DNA from: Dehalococcoidia bacterium
Lineage (GTDB): Bacteria; Chloroflexota; Dehalococcoidia; Tepidiformales; Tepidiformaceae
Direction of reading: 5' to 3'
Assembly: GCA_007118095.1 (NCBI GenBank)
Contig: SKSF01000004.1
Coordinates: 1-32,810, forward strand
Length of the DNA stretch: 32,810 nucleotides
In this document: positions 5,305-20,789 of the stretch, one piece after another
Layout of the letters: every line of letters starts with the position of its first letter
Numbering within the stretch: position 1 is the first letter of the stretch
Notes under the pieces: generated by a model
Databases searched by the model: none
What the model saw: the letters and a program-made list of their open reading frames with translations, nothing else
What the model was told of the DNA's origin: nothing
Translations under genes and position numbers: made by a program

Positions 5305-7101
5305 CTAACCGTGTTGCCGCCGTTCGGGGGTGAACCACGAATTCAGCACCGTCGTGCGATGGACGGCATAGCTGTTCTTCCAGTGGAAGTTCTGCACCCA
5401 TGGGTTTGCATACGCGTATCCAGCCGCGGCATGGTTCGGGACGAACAGCACGTAGTCAGCCATTTCCACCTGCATGTCGTGGATGAACTGGACCCGCTCG
5501 TCATGGTCCAGGATCCGGGCCTGTTCGGCGATCAATTCGTCGACGCGGTCCATTTCCTCGATCGCGCTCCCGCCCCAGTTGTGGCGTGCCGAGCTGGACG
5601 CAATATTGCGCGACATAATATCGTTTGGATCACGCGGTGAGCCAATTAGCGGGCCCAGCCCGACGCCCTCCGGTATGTCGCCCAGGTAGGTGGACTGGAT
5701 GTACGAGCCATACTCCTGGTAGGTCAGCTCCACATCCCAGCCCGCTTCTCGGATCTGCGCCGCGTGGAGCTCCCACGTTTGCTCGGCCACGCGGCCGTAG
5801 CGGTCGATGTTCGCTGTGATCCGCAGGCTCGGCGTGGATTCGCCCGTTGCCGCCTCGAAGAGCTGGCGTGCTTCCTGCGGGTTGAACTCGAACAGCTTCG
5901 CACTTTCGCCGTACTGGTCGGCATGCTCGCGCGGCGACAGGAAGAAGGGCTCCATGTTCGAGGCCACGCACGGCGAGAACCAGTCGCCTTCACCTGTCTG
6001 GTCGATGACGCCGAGCGTTGAAGCCCGGTCGATCGACATCGACAGCGCCTGGCGTACCCGCTTGTCGTGCCAGCGGCCGTCGTCATTGTCGAAGTTGAAG
6101 TAGAAGCCAGACCACACACCGTTTCCGTGGAACTGATGGTGCCCTTCGGCGTCAAGCTGCTCCTGCGCCTCGTCATAGATTGCTGAGCTCAGCCACGAAT
6201 GGTCGAATTCCCCGGCGCGCAAGCCAGCAAGGATGCGCTGAGGGTCGGCCGTCATCGAGACCTCGAGCCTGTCGAAATACGGCACACCCTCCAGGTACCA
6301 GTCCGGGTTGCGGTTCCAGTTGATGGCAACACCCGTATCCCATTCCTCGAAGATGAACGGGCCAGTGCCCACCGGGTCGGTCTGGACCTGGCCGCTCTCA
6401 ATCGTTACGACCGGGATAAACCAGACCCCCTCGGGGCTGGATGCGTGAGTCGTCAGAAACGGGGCAAAAGGTTCGTTCAGTGTCACCTGCACCGTGAAGT
6501 CGTCGACGGCTTCCACGCGGTCGATGACGGCTTCGAACGTGCCCGCATTCTGCGAAAGCGAGAGGAATGCCTGGTACGTATCGGCGAAGTCCTCCGCGGT
6601 CGCCTGGCGTCCGTCCAGTGGGGCCTTATCGTGGAAGAAGACGTTCTCCCGGAGCTTAAACGTATAGGTCAGGTCGTCGGGCTGCTCCGGAAGCGATTCC
6701 GCCAGGTCGCCCTCAAGCTCGGTGAAATCATCGGGACTGATGTCAGCGCCCGTGACGTCTGTCAACAACAAACTGTAATGCAAGGTCGCCGGGTGCTGCG
6801 CGAGGTAGGTGAGGTTCTCGAACGGAAAGAGGGTCGGAGGATCTCCACTGGAGAGCCCGACCATCGGGTAGCGCGCCACACCACCATGGCGGTCTTCGTC
6901 GCCGTTTCCATTGGTGTCTGGCGTCGGGCCGGTGTCGTCGTCGTCATCCGCGTCCGGGCGTGCATCGACTTCTTCGTCGTCGTTGCCGCAACCCACGAGC
7001 GCCAGGCCAGCGGCTCCAGTGCCGAGTGCTGCACCAGTGCCCAGGAACCGCCGCCGGGTTGAGCGGCTTCGCCCTACGGTCTCCCAATACCTGCTGCGCA
7101 T
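5305..7101 (-). CDS. Tat-exported ABC transporter solute-binding lipoprotein (copy A)
   Basis: This 598-residue extracellular solute-binding protein of family 5 (peptide/nickel/oligosaccharide type) captures a ligand outside the membrane for an ABC importer. The N-terminus has a twin-arginine motif RRRFL (16-20), a hydrophobic core and lipobox LVGC (Cys38), so it should be exported folded by Tat and then lipidated. An Asp/Asn/Gly-rich tether follows. Family features include the early YPMVGLSSGDPPTLFPFENL region, the YTFKLRENVFFHDKAPLDGR segment and the VRQALSMSIDR motif. The ATG at 7101 is chosen because GGGGAGGG lies nine bases upstream and the two neighbouring paralogues start alike. It is the most diverged of three tandem copies. 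No permease or ATPase gene lies in the window, and the ligand is unknown. Confidence 0.95.
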   Translation of the reverse strand: MRSRYWETVGRSRSTRRRFLGTGAALGTGAAGLALVGCGNDDEEVDARPDADDDDDTGPTPDTNGNGDEDRHGGVARYPMVGLSSGDPPTLFPFENLTYLAQHPATLHYSLLLTDVTGADISPDDFTELEGDLAESLPEQPDDLTYTFKLRENVFFHDKAPLDGRQATAEDFADTYQAFLSLSQNAGTFEAVIDRVEAVDDFTVQVTLNEPFAPFLTTHASSPEGVWFIPVVTIESGQVQTDPVGTGPFIFEEWDTGVAINWNRNPDWYLEGVPYFDRLEVSMTADPQRILAGLRAGEFDHSWLSSAIYDEAQEQLDAEGHHQFHGNGVWSGFYFNFDNDDGRWHDKRVRQALSMSIDRASTLGVIDQTGEGDWFSPCVASNMEPFFLSPREHADQYGESAKLFEFNPQEARQLFEAATGESTPSLRITANIDRYGRVAEQTWELHAAQIREAGWDVELTYQEYGSYIQSTYLGDIPEGVGLGPLIGSPRDPNDIMSRNIASSSARHNWGGSAIEEMDRVDELIAEQARILDHDERVQFIHDMQVEMADYVLFVPNHAAAGYAYANPWVQNFHWKNSYAVHRTTVLNSWFTPERRQHG

Positions 7102-7177
7102 GTGATTCATCCCTCCCCAATCGTTCAATAGGCAATGACCATGATCTGTATCGAGTGCATAAATCATAGCCACCTGC

Positions 7178-7207
7178 ACTATAGTTCGCCCGCCGTATCG
7201 GTGGCAA
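7178..7207 (-). promoter_or_regulatory. Promoter of solute-binding protein copy A
   Basis: On the minus strand TTGCCA (7202-7207) and TATAGT (7178-7183) are 18 bases apart, about 77 bases upstream of the chosen ATG. The -10 box is identical to those of the two paralogous genes. Confidence 0.6.
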
Positions 7208-7263
7208 TACTGAGTCGATGTGATATATCGGCAGTGCAAATGAATGGGAAAGAAGGAGGGCAC

Positions 7264-7324: not shown

Positions 7325-9106
7325 CTAGTCTTCGGCGATGCGCTCCGGGGTGAACCACGAGCGCAGCATCGAGGCATGGTGAACGGCGTAGCCGTTCTTC
7401 CAGTGCAGGTTCTGCATCCACGGGTTCGCGTACGCGTAGTCTCCCGCAGCCGTGTACGGCACAACCAGCATGTACTCGGCCATCTCCCGCTGCATATCGT
7501 GGATGTACTCGATCCGCTCGTCCTCATCGAGGATGCGCCGCTGTTCGCGGATCATCTCGTCGATGCGGTCCATCTCGTCGATCGGCGTGCCACCCCAGTT
7601 GTGGCGGGCCGACGACGATGCCTGGTTACGGGACAGCGTGTCGTTCGGGTCGCGGGGAGCCCCGATCAGCGGCCCGAGCCCGACGCCTTCGTCGATCTCG
7701 CCCAGGAACGTGGACTGGATGTAAGAACCGTATTCCTGGTAGGTCAGCTCTACGTCCCAGCCGACTTCCTGGAGGCTGGCCGAGAGGAGCTCCCAGTTCT
7801 GTTCGGCCGCGCGGCCGTACCGGTCGATATTGGCGGTGATGCGGATCTGCGGGGTCTCGGTCCCGAGTGCCGCGTCGAGCAGTGCGCGGGCCTCCTCCGG
7901 GTTGTATTCGAAGAACCGCCCGTTCTCGCCGTAGTCGTCGTCGCGTGGCGACAGGTAGAAGGGGACCATGTCCGTCGAGCAGAACGGCGAGAACCAGTCC
8001 CCACGTCCCGTCCCGTCGAGCACGTCCGCGACCGACTCGCGATTGATCGACATGGAGAGCGCCTGGCGGACGCGCTTATCGCGCCAGCGGCCATCTTCGA
8101 TGTCGAAGTTGAAGTAGAACGCGCCGAAGGAGCTGTTCCCGTAGTAGTAGTTCGTCCCGTCCGGGTCGAGCTGATCCTGCGCTTCGTCGTAGACAGCACC
8201 GCTCAGGCCAGCGAGGTCGAAGTCACCCGCTCGCAGACCGGCCATAAGGCGCTGCGGCTCGGCGACGAGTGAACCTTCCACACGGTCAAAGTATGGAAGC
8301 TCGGGGATGAAGTAGTTGGGGTTCCGGTTCCAGTTGATGGCAACGCCGCTATCCCAGCTATCGAAGAGCCACGGGCCAGTGCCCACCGGGTCCTCCTGAA
8401 CCTGCCCGCTGTCGATGGTCTCGACCGGGATGAGCCACAGGCCTTCGGGTGTCGACGCGTGAACGCTCAAGAACGGCGCGAAGGGCTCATTCAGCGTCAC
8501 CTGGATGGTGAACTCGTCGGTGGCCTCCATGCTTTCGATGACTTCTTCATAGACCGCGGCGTTCTGCGAGAGCGACAGGAAGGCCTGGTACGTGTTGACC
8601 ACGTCTTCCGCCGTCATCTGGCGGCCGTCCATGGGGGCCTTGTCGTGGTAGTGGACGTTATCGCGGAGGCGGAAGATGTAAGTGGTATCGTCTGGCTGTT
8701 CCGGCATACCTTCGCAGACGTCACCTTCGAGGGCGGTGTAGTCGTCGATGTCCACATCATCGCCCGCGTACTCACTAAGCAGACGGCTGTAGTGCATCAC
8801 TGCCGGGTGCTGTGCGAGGAAGGTCAGGTTCTCGTAGGGGAAGAGCGTCGGCGGGTCGCCGCTGCTCATGCCCATGAACGGGTAGCGCAGCGTACCGCCA
8901 TAGCGGTCGCCGTTCTCCTCGCCGTTTCCGTTTGGTGCCGGGGCGTCGTCGCCATTGCCGTTCGCCGGCGTCGTGTCGTCGTCGTCGTTGCCGCAGCCAA
9001 CGAGTGCCAGCCCTGCGGACCCGGCGCCGAGCGCCGCGCCTGTCCCAAGGAACCGCCGGCGCGTCGATTTGCGCCCGGTCAGATCCTTCCAGTAATTGCT
9101 TCGCAT
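7325..9106 (-). CDS. Tat-exported ABC transporter solute-binding lipoprotein (copy B)
   Basis: This 593-residue family 5 solute-binding protein is closely related to copy C, with long stretches identical in amino acids and nearly so in DNA. The N-terminus has twin-arginine RRRFL (16-20) and lipobox LVGC (Cys38), followed by a tether (CGNDDDDTTPANGNG and more) leading to the binding fold. The hallmark segments LRYPFMGMSSGDPPTLFPY and VRQALSMSINR are intact. The start at 9106 is supported by AGGAGGG nine bases upstream and by the matching starts of the other copies. It has its own promoter and terminator, so it is expressed independently. It presumably delivers a peptide-like or other oligomeric solute to an importer encoded elsewhere. 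Confidence 0.95.
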   Translation of the reverse strand: MRSNYWKDLTGRKSTRRRFLGTGAALGAGSAGLALVGCGNDDDDTTPANGNGDDAPAPNGNGEENGDRYGGTLRYPFMGMSSGDPPTLFPYENLTFLAQHPAVMHYSRLLSEYAGDDVDIDDYTALEGDVCEGMPEQPDDTTYIFRLRDNVHYHDKAPMDGRQMTAEDVVNTYQAFLSLSQNAAVYEEVIESMEATDEFTIQVTLNEPFAPFLSVHASTPEGLWLIPVETIDSGQVQEDPVGTGPWLFDSWDSGVAINWNRNPNYFIPELPYFDRVEGSLVAEPQRLMAGLRAGDFDLAGLSGAVYDEAQDQLDPDGTNYYYGNSSFGAFYFNFDIEDGRWRDKRVRQALSMSINRESVADVLDGTGRGDWFSPFCSTDMVPFYLSPRDDDYGENGRFFEYNPEEARALLDAALGTETPQIRITANIDRYGRAAEQNWELLSASLQEVGWDVELTYQEYGSYIQSTFLGEIDEGVGLGPLIGAPRDPNDTLSRNQASSSARHNWGGTPIDEMDRIDEMIREQRRILDEDERIEYIHDMQREMAEYMLVVPYTAAGDYAYANPWMQNLHWKNGYAVHHASMLRSWFTPERIAED

Positions 9107-9183
9107 GTTGTTCGTCCCTCCTGCGTACTGCAATAGCAAGCGGCGATTCGGAGAATTGAACCGCCGCAGCGCTTCCGCACGGG

Positions 9184-9366: not shown

Positions 9367-11181
9367 TTAGCCCTCCGCGATGCGCTCAGGCGTGAACCAG
9401 CTCCTCAAGTAGGCAGCGTGGTGCACGGCGTAGCCGTTCTTCCAGTGGAGGTTTTGCATCCACGGATTCGCATATGCATATGCTGCGCCGGCCGTATACG
9501 GCACAACCAGCATGTACTCGGCCATCTCCCGCTGCATATCGTGGATGTACTCGATCCGCTCGTCCTCGTCGAGGATGAGCCGCTGTTCGCGGATCATCTC
9601 GTCGATGCGGTCCATCTCGTCGATCGGCGTGCCACCCCAGTTGTGGCGGGCCGATGACGATGCCTGGTTGCGCGACAGCGTGTCGTTCGGGTCGCGGGGA
9701 GCCCCGATCAGCGGCCCGAGCCCGACACCTTCGTCGATCTCGCCCAGGAAGGTGGACTGGATGTAAGAACCGTATTCCTGGAACGTGAGCTCAACGTCCC
9801 AGCCCACTTCCTGCAGGCTGGCAGTGATGAGTTCCCAGTTTTGCTCGGCCGCGCGGCCGTACCGGTCGATATTGGCGGTGATGCGGATCTGCGGCGTTTC
9901 GGTTCCGAGTGCCGCGTCCAGCAGTGCGCGGGCCTCCTCCGGGTTGTACTCGAAGAACTTGCCGTTCTCGCCGTAGTCGTCGTCGCGTGGCGACAGGTAG
10001 AAGGGGACCATGTCCGTCGAGCAGAACGGCGAGAACCAGTCTCCCTGGCCGGTCTGGTCGAGCACATCCGAGATCGACTGGCGGTTCATCGACATTGACA
10101 GCGCCTGCCGGACGCGCGTATCGCGCCAGCGGCCCTCCTCGATGTCGAAGTTGAAGTAGAACGCGCCGAAGGAGCTGTTCCCGAAGTAGTAGTTCGTCCC
10201 GTCCGGGTCGAGCTGGTCCTGCGCTTCGTCGTAGACCGTTCCGCTGAGAAGCGAGAAATCGAAGTCGCCCGCGCGGAGGCCCGCCATGATGCGCTGCGGC
10301 TCGGCGATGAGCGAACCTTCGACGCGATCGTAGTAGGGCCATTCAGGTACGAAGTAGTTGGGGTTCCGGTTCCAGTTGATGGCAACGCCGCTATCCCAGC
10401 TATCGAAGAGCCACGGGCCGGTGCCCACCGGGTCGTCCTGTACCTGGCCACCGTCAATGGATTCGACCGGGATGAGCCACAGACCTTCGGGCGTGGAAGC
10501 ATGAATGGTCAGGAAGGGGGCAAACGGCTCATTGAGCGTTACCTGGATGGTGAACTCGTCCGTCGCCTCGATACCTTCGATGACTTCCTCGTACACAGCC
10601 GCGTTCTGTGAAAGCGAAAGGAACGCCTGGTAGCTGTTGACGACGTCTTCCGCGGTCATCTGGCGACCGTCCATCGGCGCCTTGTCATGAAAATGCACAT
10701 TCTCGCGGAGGCGGAAGACGTAGGTGGTGTCGTCCGGTTGTTCCGGCATACCCTCGCACACGTCACCTTCGAGGGAGGTGTAGTCGTCGATATCAACGTC
10801 CTCGCCCGCATACTCGGTGAGCAGCCGGCTGTAGTGCATCACCGCCGGGTGCTGCGCGAGGTAGGTCAGGTTCTCGTAGGGGAAGAGCGTCGGCGGGTCG
10901 CCGCTGCTCATGCCCATGAACGGGTAGCGCAGCGTACCGCCATAGCGGTCGCCGTTGCCGTTCCCATTGCCGTTGCCGTTGGTGTCCGGCGCGCCGTCGT
11001 CGTCGACACCATTCCCGTTGTCGTCGCCATTCCCGTTCGCCGGCGTCGTGTCGTCGTCGTCGTTGCCGCAGCCAACGAGTGCCAGCCCTGCGGACCCGGC
11101 GCCGAGCGCCGCGCCTGTCCCGAGGAACCGCCGGCGCGTGGATTTGCGCCGCGTCAGCTCCTTCCAGTAGTTACTTCGCAT
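9367..11181 (-). CDS. Tat-exported ABC transporter solute-binding lipoprotein (copy C)
   Basis: This 604-residue protein is a close paralogue of copy B: same twin-arginine RRRFL (16-20), same lipobox LVGC with Cys38, and the same solute-binding family 5 fold. The main difference is the tether, which is lengthened by extra Asp/Gly/Asn repeats (runs of NGNGNG) before the conserved RYGGTLRYPFMGM block. The ATG at 11181 has AGGAGGG nine bases upstream. As the first of the three tandem minus-strand genes it has its own promoter. The near identity with copy B, including upstream DNA, points to recent duplication or gene conversion, while scattered differences in the lobes may reflect a changed ligand. 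Confidence 0.95.
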   Translation of the reverse strand: MRSNYWKELTRRKSTRRRFLGTGAALGAGSAGLALVGCGNDDDDTTPANGNGDDNGNGVDDDGAPDTNGNGNGNGNGDRYGGTLRYPFMGMSSGDPPTLFPYENLTYLAQHPAVMHYSRLLTEYAGEDVDIDDYTSLEGDVCEGMPEQPDDTTYVFRLRENVHFHDKAPMDGRQMTAEDVVNSYQAFLSLSQNAAVYEEVIEGIEATDEFTIQVTLNEPFAPFLTIHASTPEGLWLIPVESIDGGQVQDDPVGTGPWLFDSWDSGVAINWNRNPNYFVPEWPYYDRVEGSLIAEPQRIMAGLRAGDFDFSLLSGTVYDEAQDQLDPDGTNYYFGNSSFGAFYFNFDIEEGRWRDTRVRQALSMSMNRQSISDVLDQTGQGDWFSPFCSTDMVPFYLSPRDDDYGENGKFFEYNPEEARALLDAALGTETPQIRITANIDRYGRAAEQNWELITASLQEVGWDVELTFQEYGSYIQSTFLGEIDEGVGLGPLIGAPRDPNDTLSRNQASSSARHNWGGTPIDEMDRIDEMIREQRLILDEDERIEYIHDMQREMAEYMLVVPYTAGAAYAYANPWMQNLHWKNGYAVHHAAYLRSWFTPERIAEG

Positions 11182-11257
11182 AGTGGTCTTCCCTCCTGCA
11201 TAGGTGAATAGCGGCACATGATGCGGTCATTAGAGCCGTCTATGCCCTGCTCCGGGA

Positions 11258-17098: not shown

Positions 17099-17647
17099 TC
17101 AAACCGGCCCCAACGGTGCCCAGGTGCCCTCGGGACGCACAACGGCGACAGCATCACCGGAACGGATCGTCCCGCCGCGCGCCACGGTGGCCATCACGCC
17201 AGCCTTCCGCGTGAGAGACCCGTCAGGATGCCGTTCAAGGACAGCTTCCATCAGGCCCGGCTGGATGCCGTCGAGTTGAGCACAGGGATTCCGCAAGCCA
17301 GTAATCTCCACCACTGCCGCTTCCCCCAGGTGCAGGCGGGACCCCGCCGGGAGCGCGAGGAGGTCGATGCCGCGGGTAGTGATGTTCTCGCCCATCTGCC
17401 CCGGGCTCACTGCGAAGCCGTCGCTGGCAAGGTCGTCGAAGAGCTCAGCGTGCACGAGGTGCACCTGGCGCAGGTTCGGCTGCGAAGGGTCGCGGGCGAC
17501 GCGCGAGCGGTGCTTCACAGTTGTCCCGGCGTGCGCATCACCCTCCACGCCAATGCCCGCAACGAGCTCAATCTGCGCCACGGCCGGCTTGCTCATGGTG
17601 TGTGCGTCGCTCCGGCAGACCGCGACCACCTGCCCGGCCGTTTCCAC
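17099..17647 (-). CDS. MOSC-domain protein
   Basis: This protein of about 182 residues belongs to the MOSC (molybdenum cofactor sulfurase C-terminal) family, whose members bind molybdopterin cofactor or carry sulfur on a conserved Cys. Family landmarks are GIGVEGDAHAG (31-41), RQVHLVHAELFDDL, GQMGENITTRGIDL, and the conserved Cys122 in ITGLRNPC, with a basic residue before the C-terminal AGVMATV segment. The start is placed at the GTG at 17647 because the open frame further upstream runs through the tRNA-Leu gene. The ribosome binding site is weak, so a nearby GTG could be used. It lies 11 bases behind the tRNA and is probably co-transcribed with it. The sulfur donor or acceptor role is inferred. 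Confidence 0.85.
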   Translation of the reverse strand: METAGQVVAVCRSDAHTMSKPAVAQIELVAGIGVEGDAHAGTTVKHRSRVARDPSQPNLRQVHLVHAELFDDLASDGFAVSPGQMGENITTRGIDLLALPAGSRLHLGEAAVVEITGLRNPCAQLDGIQPGLMEAVLERHPDGSLTRKAGVMATVARGGTIRSGDAVAVVRPEGTWAPLGPV

Positions 17648-17658
17648 CCTGGTGGGAC

Positions 17659-17742
17659 TGGTACCGGGGGTGGGATTCGAACCCACACGACCGAAGTCCG
17701 TGGAGTTTAAGTCCACTGCGTCTGCCATTTCGCCACCCCGGC
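17659..17742 (-). tRNA. tRNA-Leu, anticodon UAA
   Basis: This is an 84-nt class II tRNA with a long variable arm. The acceptor stem is GCCGGGG paired with CCCCGGT (first pair G-T), the anticodon stem GTGGA/TCCAC closes the loop CTTAAAC (anticodon TAA), and the T arm is GTGGG-TTCGAAT-CCCAC. The discriminator is A, as expected for leucine, and the CCA end is encoded. It reads UUA codons, which are rare in such GC-rich genes. Confidence 0.95.
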
Positions 17743-17774
17743 CTTTCAAATGTGTGCAGACGGCACCCTCTCGA

Positions 17775-19656: not shown

Positions 19657-19733
19657 GAACGCAATGGTACGCGCCGTGCCGTTCCGGGGCAGTCGGTGCG
19701 GCGACTGCCCCGGGTATCCGCTAGCATGTGTCC

Positions 19734-20789
19734 ATGAGTGAAAAGCCAGTCCGGCTGACTGAACTCACCAGTTGCGGCGGTTGAGCGTCCAAGGCGGGCC
19801 CCGAGGCCCTGGCGCAGGTCCTGTCGCCGCTGGCTGGTGTGTTTAATCGCGAGGCGCATCCCGACCTCCTCGTCGGGACGAGCGTCGCTGACGACGCCGC
19901 TGTGTACCGCATCAACGCGGAAACAGCGGTGGTGGCTACGCTTGACTTCTTTTCCCCCATCGTCGACGACCCATACGCCTATGGCGCCATCGCCGCCGCG
20001 AACGCCATGTCGGACGTCTTCGCCATGGGCGGCGAAGTTGCGCTGGCTTTGAACGTCGCGGCCTTCCCCGAAGACCTGGACGCCAGCGTGATCGGCGAGA
20101 TTCTGCGCGGAGGCGCCGAAAAGGTTGCCGAGGCCGGCGGTGTCATCGCCGGTGGCCACACAGTCTGGGACCAGGAACCGAAGTACGGCCTCAGCGTGAC
20201 TGGCATCGCTCACCCGGACCGGCTCATGGTGAAGTCGGGGCTCCAGCCCGGCGACCTGCTGTATGTGACGAAGCCGCTGGGCGTCGGTTGCCTGGTCTCC
20301 GCGATGCGGAACGGCCATGCCGAGGACGCGTGGATCGAGGGGGCCATCGATTCGATGCTTCAGCTCAACCGCCACCCATCACACCTCGCCCTCGCGGCAG
20401 GTGTCCGTGCTGCCACGGACGTGACCGGGTTCGGCTTGCTTGGCCACCTCTGGGAAATGGCCGAGCGCTCCGCGGTCGCTGTCACAGTTGACCTGTCCAC
20501 CCTGCCGGCCCTGCCGGGCGCGCGCGAAGCCAGCCGCATGGGTTTCCATACGGGTGGCGAGGGCCGCAACCGCGCGTGGGTCGAGCCGAACATGAGTCTG
20601 CCCGTCGATGTCGACGAAGACGCCCTCGCGCTCGGGTTCGACCCGCAGACGTCTGGCGGGCTGCTGCTCGCTATTGCGGAAGGCCGCGCCCCCGAGTTGG
20701 AAGCAGCCTTCGCAAATGACGGGCTGCCACTCTGGCGGATTGGCCGGGTAGAGGCAGGTGCTCCCACGGTAACGCTGCTGCAGGGCTGA
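19734..20789 (+). CDS. selD: Selenide, water dikinase, itself a selenoprotein (in-frame UGA = Sec17)
   Basis: SelD makes selenophosphate from selenide and ATP, the selenium donor for selenocysteine and selenouridine synthesis. The gene begins with the ATG at 19734 (MSEKPVRLTELTSCGG), then an in-frame TGA at 19782-19784, then ASK. The TGA falls at residue 17 and the Lys at residue 20, the positions of the essential Cys17 and Lys20 of E. coli SelD. Decoding it as selenocysteine gives a normal 351-residue protein. A GC-rich hairpin sits just downstream. The rest shows the family's features: the metal-binding DDAAVY and IVDDPYAYGAIAAANAMSDVFAMGG segments, GGHTVWDQEP, ATDVTGFGLLGH, and the C-terminal DPQTSGGLL. 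A conventional gene caller would start at the GTG at 19839 and lose the active site. Confidence 0.95.
19789..19812 (+). promoter_or_regulatory. SECIS-like hairpin downstream of selD UGA
   Basis: Five bases after the UGA codon an outer CCA/TGG pairing (19789-19791 with 19810-19812) encloses an internal loop and a perfect 5-bp stem GGGCC/GGCCC (19796-19800 with 19805-19809) with loop CCGA. The apical loop lies 17 to 20 bases after the UGA, within the range usual for bacterial SECIS elements bound by SelB. The loop lacks an obvious bulged U, so the fold is a candidate. Confidence 0.6.

Follow-up and report, generated by a model that had tools for sequence, protein, structure and literature searches.

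A conserved in-frame UGA codon in selD of a Dehalococcoidia bacterium probably encodes the active-site selenocysteine of selenophosphate synthetase

A window of 32,810 nucleotides, the whole stretch of DNA analysed here, from a Dehalococcoidia bacterium (Chloroflexota; Tepidiformaceae) carries a selD gene that is crossed near its 5' end by a UGA codon, which raises the question of whether this codon ends translation or is read as selenocysteine (Sec). The gene, for selenide, water dikinase (selenophosphate synthetase), occupies 19734..20789 of the plus strand and consists of 351 codons plus a stop, with the UGA counted as one residue. It opens with ATG at 19734 and reads MSEKPVRLTELTSCGG up to the UGA at codon 17 (19782..19784), then ASKAGPEALAQVL, staying open to a stop that ends at 20789. 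The preliminary description of this DNA had placed the UGA at codon 17, between this ATG and the rest of selD, and had claimed that the 5' end of the gene would be missed in standard annotation. The first point is borne out by the sequence and its translation; as to the second, a plain ORF finder using table 11 does open the gene at GTG 19839, giving a truncated frame of 316 amino acids (19839..20789, plus strand) without the active-site loop. An in-frame TAG at 19722-19724 shuts the frame upstream, and translation might alternatively begin at an in-frame GTG at 19728. The motif TAGCAT stands six bases before the ATG, no clear ribosome-binding site is seen in 19722-19733, and the selD transcript is possibly leaderless.

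The read-through product belongs to the SelD family over nearly its full length. It scores 362.6 bits against the TIGR00476 profile, for which the cut-off is 125 (residues 7-316 on profile positions 1-308 of 311), and aligns with E. coli SelD (3u0o) over residues 1-339 (E=4e-67). In the N-terminal part, residues 1-20 of 3u0o are matched without a gap, the UGA falling on C17, the catalytic position, and the AAG codon at 19791..19793 (plus strand) on K20, the conserved active-site lysine. The combination that marks the family, Cys or Sec at position 17 with Lys at position 20, is thus found here, and the 3u0o alignment confirms the earlier claim that Sec at 17 and the essential Lys at 20 stand as in known SelD enzymes. 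While C17 and K20 of the E. coli protein correspond to U17 and K20, the two enzymes differ nearby: E. coli SelD has Cys17 and Cys19 and lacks Cys14, whereas the window's SelD has U17, Ser19 and Cys14.

The UGA, aligned to the Cys or Sec of homologues, is also retained in relatives. In an order-level sample of 38 genomes, SelD was found above the cut-off in 29, with a readable N-terminus in 28, and codon 17 is TGA in 27 of these 28, representing 14 genera. The exception has TGC (genome G012, locus L032; locus L126 is identical to it). Among the order's relatives the start at codon -16/-17 is likewise kept. Because the match to SelD runs end to end, the N-terminus aligns without gaps and the TGA is preserved in 27 of 28 SelD N-termini of the order, a chance open frame is excluded. 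The draft state of the assembly (227 contigs) and the TGC of G012 could be taken to mean that the true codon here is TGC or TGT, encoding Cys, and was altered by sequencing or assembly error, or that the gene is dead. Such an error, which had been singled out beforehand as fatal to the Sec reading, is ruled out because this codon is TGA in 27 genomes from 14 genera of the order and in most of the listed Chloroflexota SelD matches; apart from it, the frame is uninterrupted and conserved, and synonymous change is additionally restrained in the RNA that follows (described below). The probability of an error or pseudogene is therefore negligible. Import of the G012 Cys-SelD from outside the family is unsupported, as in the tree it sits inside the family clade.

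Conservation of the N-terminus also bears on the proposal that the UGA is a true stop, with translation from GTG 19839 producing a functional protein without the active-site loop, comparable to a SelD-related paralogue inactive in selenophosphate synthesis. An open frame of 316 amino acids does begin at this GTG. However, on both sides of the UGA the adjoining peptide is conserved at protein level in 27 genomes, and in several relatives the 60 codons 3' of the UGA contain no ATG, GTG or TTG, so that a downstream start is rejected. Moreover, this is the only SelD above the TIGR00476 cut-off in a genome that holds tRNA-Sec, SelA, SelB and other UGA-containing genes. Termination at codon 17 is accordingly regarded as extremely improbable.

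Reading of the UGA as Sec demands a dedicated machinery, and the preliminary description had called for SelA, SelB and tRNA-Sec elsewhere in the genome, naming the absence of SelB and tRNA-Sec as grounds for rejection. In the draft assembly (3.2 Mb, 98% complete), a tRNA-Sec gene with anticodon UCA lies at 10075-10168 of contig C14 (72.6 bits), and SelB is encoded on C70 by an uninterrupted frame of 614 residues that matches both the elongation-factor part and the C-terminal part. SelA is present in two pieces, one at the low end of C68 that covers profile positions 2-325, the other at the high end of C209 with positions 339-453. Because both pieces lie at contig ends, selA most likely spans a contig gap and is predicted to be intact. 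The set of tRNA-Sec, SelA, SelB and SelD is thus represented in the genome, broken only by the gap in selA. In the Cys-SelD relative G012, a stretch of about 8 kb contains a UGSC-family gene, selD, tRNA-Sec and selB (L164, G012:C4:158500-171500), unlike in the window's genome, where these genes occupy separate contigs.

Across the 38 genomes, tRNA-Sec was found in 28 of 29 SelD-positive and 0 of 9 SelD-negative genomes (Fisher p = 6e-8), and SelB in 27 of 29 and 0 of 9, respectively (Fisher p = 3e-7), both p values being optimistic because the genomes are related; SelD, tRNA-Sec and SelB are jointly missing from nine genomes. These observations argue against the alternative that near-cognate read-through or a reassigned code places Cys, Trp or some other residue at the UGA. 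The inserted residue cannot be named from sequence alone, but the bacterial Sec machinery is there in full and accompanies SelD across genomes, Sec is known to work at position 17 (PMC4561486), and UGA still terminates genes in this organism, including selD itself (20787-20789). Insertion of a residue other than Sec is consequently considered very unlikely. The conserved TGA, together with tRNA-Sec, SelA and SelB, supports the earlier claim that the organism decodes UGA as selenocysteine.

Taken together, the evidence leads us to infer, with a probability of roughly 97%, that the product of selD is a selenophosphate synthetase with selenocysteine, specified by the UGA at codon 17 and inserted via SelB with the aid of a SECIS element, in an organism that also uses Sec in at least three other proteins. 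Translation would initiate at 19734, and at codon 17 SelB carrying Sec-tRNA(Sec) would serve the ribosome in place of a release factor, aided by an RNA stem-loop just 3' of the UGA. The resulting enzyme would convert selenide and ATP to selenophosphate by means of U17 and K20, and SelA would use selenophosphate to convert Ser-tRNA(Sec) to Sec-tRNA(Sec), which would then supply SelD itself as well as at least three other selenoproteins, two of the UGSC family and one SelW-like.

The RNA following the UGA carries a candidate bacterial SECIS at 19785..19826 (plus strand). Among the 27 TGA-containing genes, codons 24-31 (19803-19826) have the lowest synonymous variation of any 8-codon window in selD, 0.15 compared with a gene mean of 0.485 and with 0.336 for the lowest such window past codon 40. 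When eight codon columns were drawn at random 200,000 times, no set was as low, in a test that takes columns as independent although the genomes are related. In the TGC-containing selD of G012 this stretch is altered. A short G+C stem, present in two registers among relatives, starts 11 bases 3' of the UGA (GGGCC at 19796-19800 and GGCCC at 19805-19809, enclosing a loop at 19801-19804). The predicted fold of -16.9 kcal/mol was no better than those of shuffled sequences (z -0.29 to 0.9, for short stretches), and the pairs are kept, with no covariation beyond shuffle level, because the stem hardly varies. The assignment therefore rests on synonymous constraint and position, which fit a bacterial SECIS of putative structure. 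Scanning the window by codon usage for further read-through TGAs was uninformative, as even the selD TGA was not ranked.

The active site is of the C-x-x-U type, Cys14 (TGC, 19773..19775, plus strand) lying three residues ahead of U17 in C14-G-G-U17. This arrangement was described for single-domain Sec-SelDs of an ocean metagenome, of which it accounted for about 5.6% (PMC2398784). In contrast to its minority status there, Cys14 is universal in the order studied here (28 of 28 N-termini), and it is common across Chloroflexota. Over 95 loci, Cys14 occurs without Cys19 in 67 and Cys19 without Cys14 in 22, while neither is found in six and both in none. This distribution raises the idea, tentative and on balance unlikely, that a Cys near the Sec (C14 here, C19 elsewhere) is a functional partner that may stand on either side of U17 and is needed only once. 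One conceivable role is that of a resolving thiol, which would join U17 in a selenenylsulfide during selenium transfer or for protection. On a tree built from 90 SelD bodies, eight changes are required for the second-Cys state and eight for the Sec/Cys state. The states run along clades, with too few independent switches for a sign test to decide the matter.

SelD is not the sole selenoprotein of this organism, given UGA copies of genes from two further families. SelD, SelW-like and UGSC proteins are among the main selenoprotein families (PMC2398784), and selenoproteins were sought here family by family. At least three more UGA-containing genes were found in the window's genome, making at least four with selD. 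Two belong to the UGSC family and have TGA where the UGSC motif has its U (C205:33086-33514, minus strand; C27:32410-32841, plus strand; loci L159 and L160), and TGA is present in every UGSC match of the order. The third belongs to a tandem pair of SelW-like (Rdx) genes at C121:56519-57043 (L196, L197), in which a Cys copy with CRPC stands first, side by side with a Sec copy with CVP-UGA. A Sec-containing formate dehydrogenase as the main client was rejected, as none of the FdhA matches of the order contains a TGA, and so was a supply of selenium to selenouridine synthesis, for which no TIGR03167 match was found in the 38 genomes. Within these searches, selenophosphate therefore appears to go into selenocysteine.

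Selenocysteine-containing SelD is a classic prokaryotic selenoprotein that has been described for decades, and the window's selD is a plain, ordinary member of this known group, in its CxxU form. It shares with Sec-containing bacterial SelD (TIGR00476; PMC4561486) its full length, Sec in place of Cys17, retention of K20 and the company of SelA, SelB and tRNA-Sec, and shows no essential difference. Of the SelD genes detected in prokaryotes, 19% were reported to contain Sec, whose position never varied (PMC4561486). Among 400 Chloroflexota genomes, SelD is present in 315, and a single TGA was counted in 131 of the 150 best-scoring listed matches; this rate is not unbiased, since the list is made up of the best-scoring matches. 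The named relatives are metagenome-assembled genomes of Dehalococcoidia and other Chloroflexota, most with TGA at codon 17. Going by the best-scoring listed matches, the Sec form is the majority and UGA-containing SelD is the rule in Chloroflexota. The locus thus points to selenocysteine use by this lineage. It also illustrates that gene calling with the unmodified bacterial code would remove the active site from an enzyme that the entire pathway requires; the annotation of selD should be corrected to a start at 19734 with Sec at codon 17, and the other UGA-containing genes of the genome likewise need correction.

Elsewhere in the window, three tandem paralogous genes for family-5 extracellular solute-binding proteins lie on the minus strand (5305-7263, 7325-9139 and 9367-11217), the third of which matched Pfam SBP_bac_5, while the other two were judged by their similar translations. 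A tRNA-Leu (UAA) gene at 17659-17742, also on the minus strand, overlaps the 5' end of the ORF for a MOSC-domain protein (17099-17749), and the start of that protein is therefore probably further downstream than listed.
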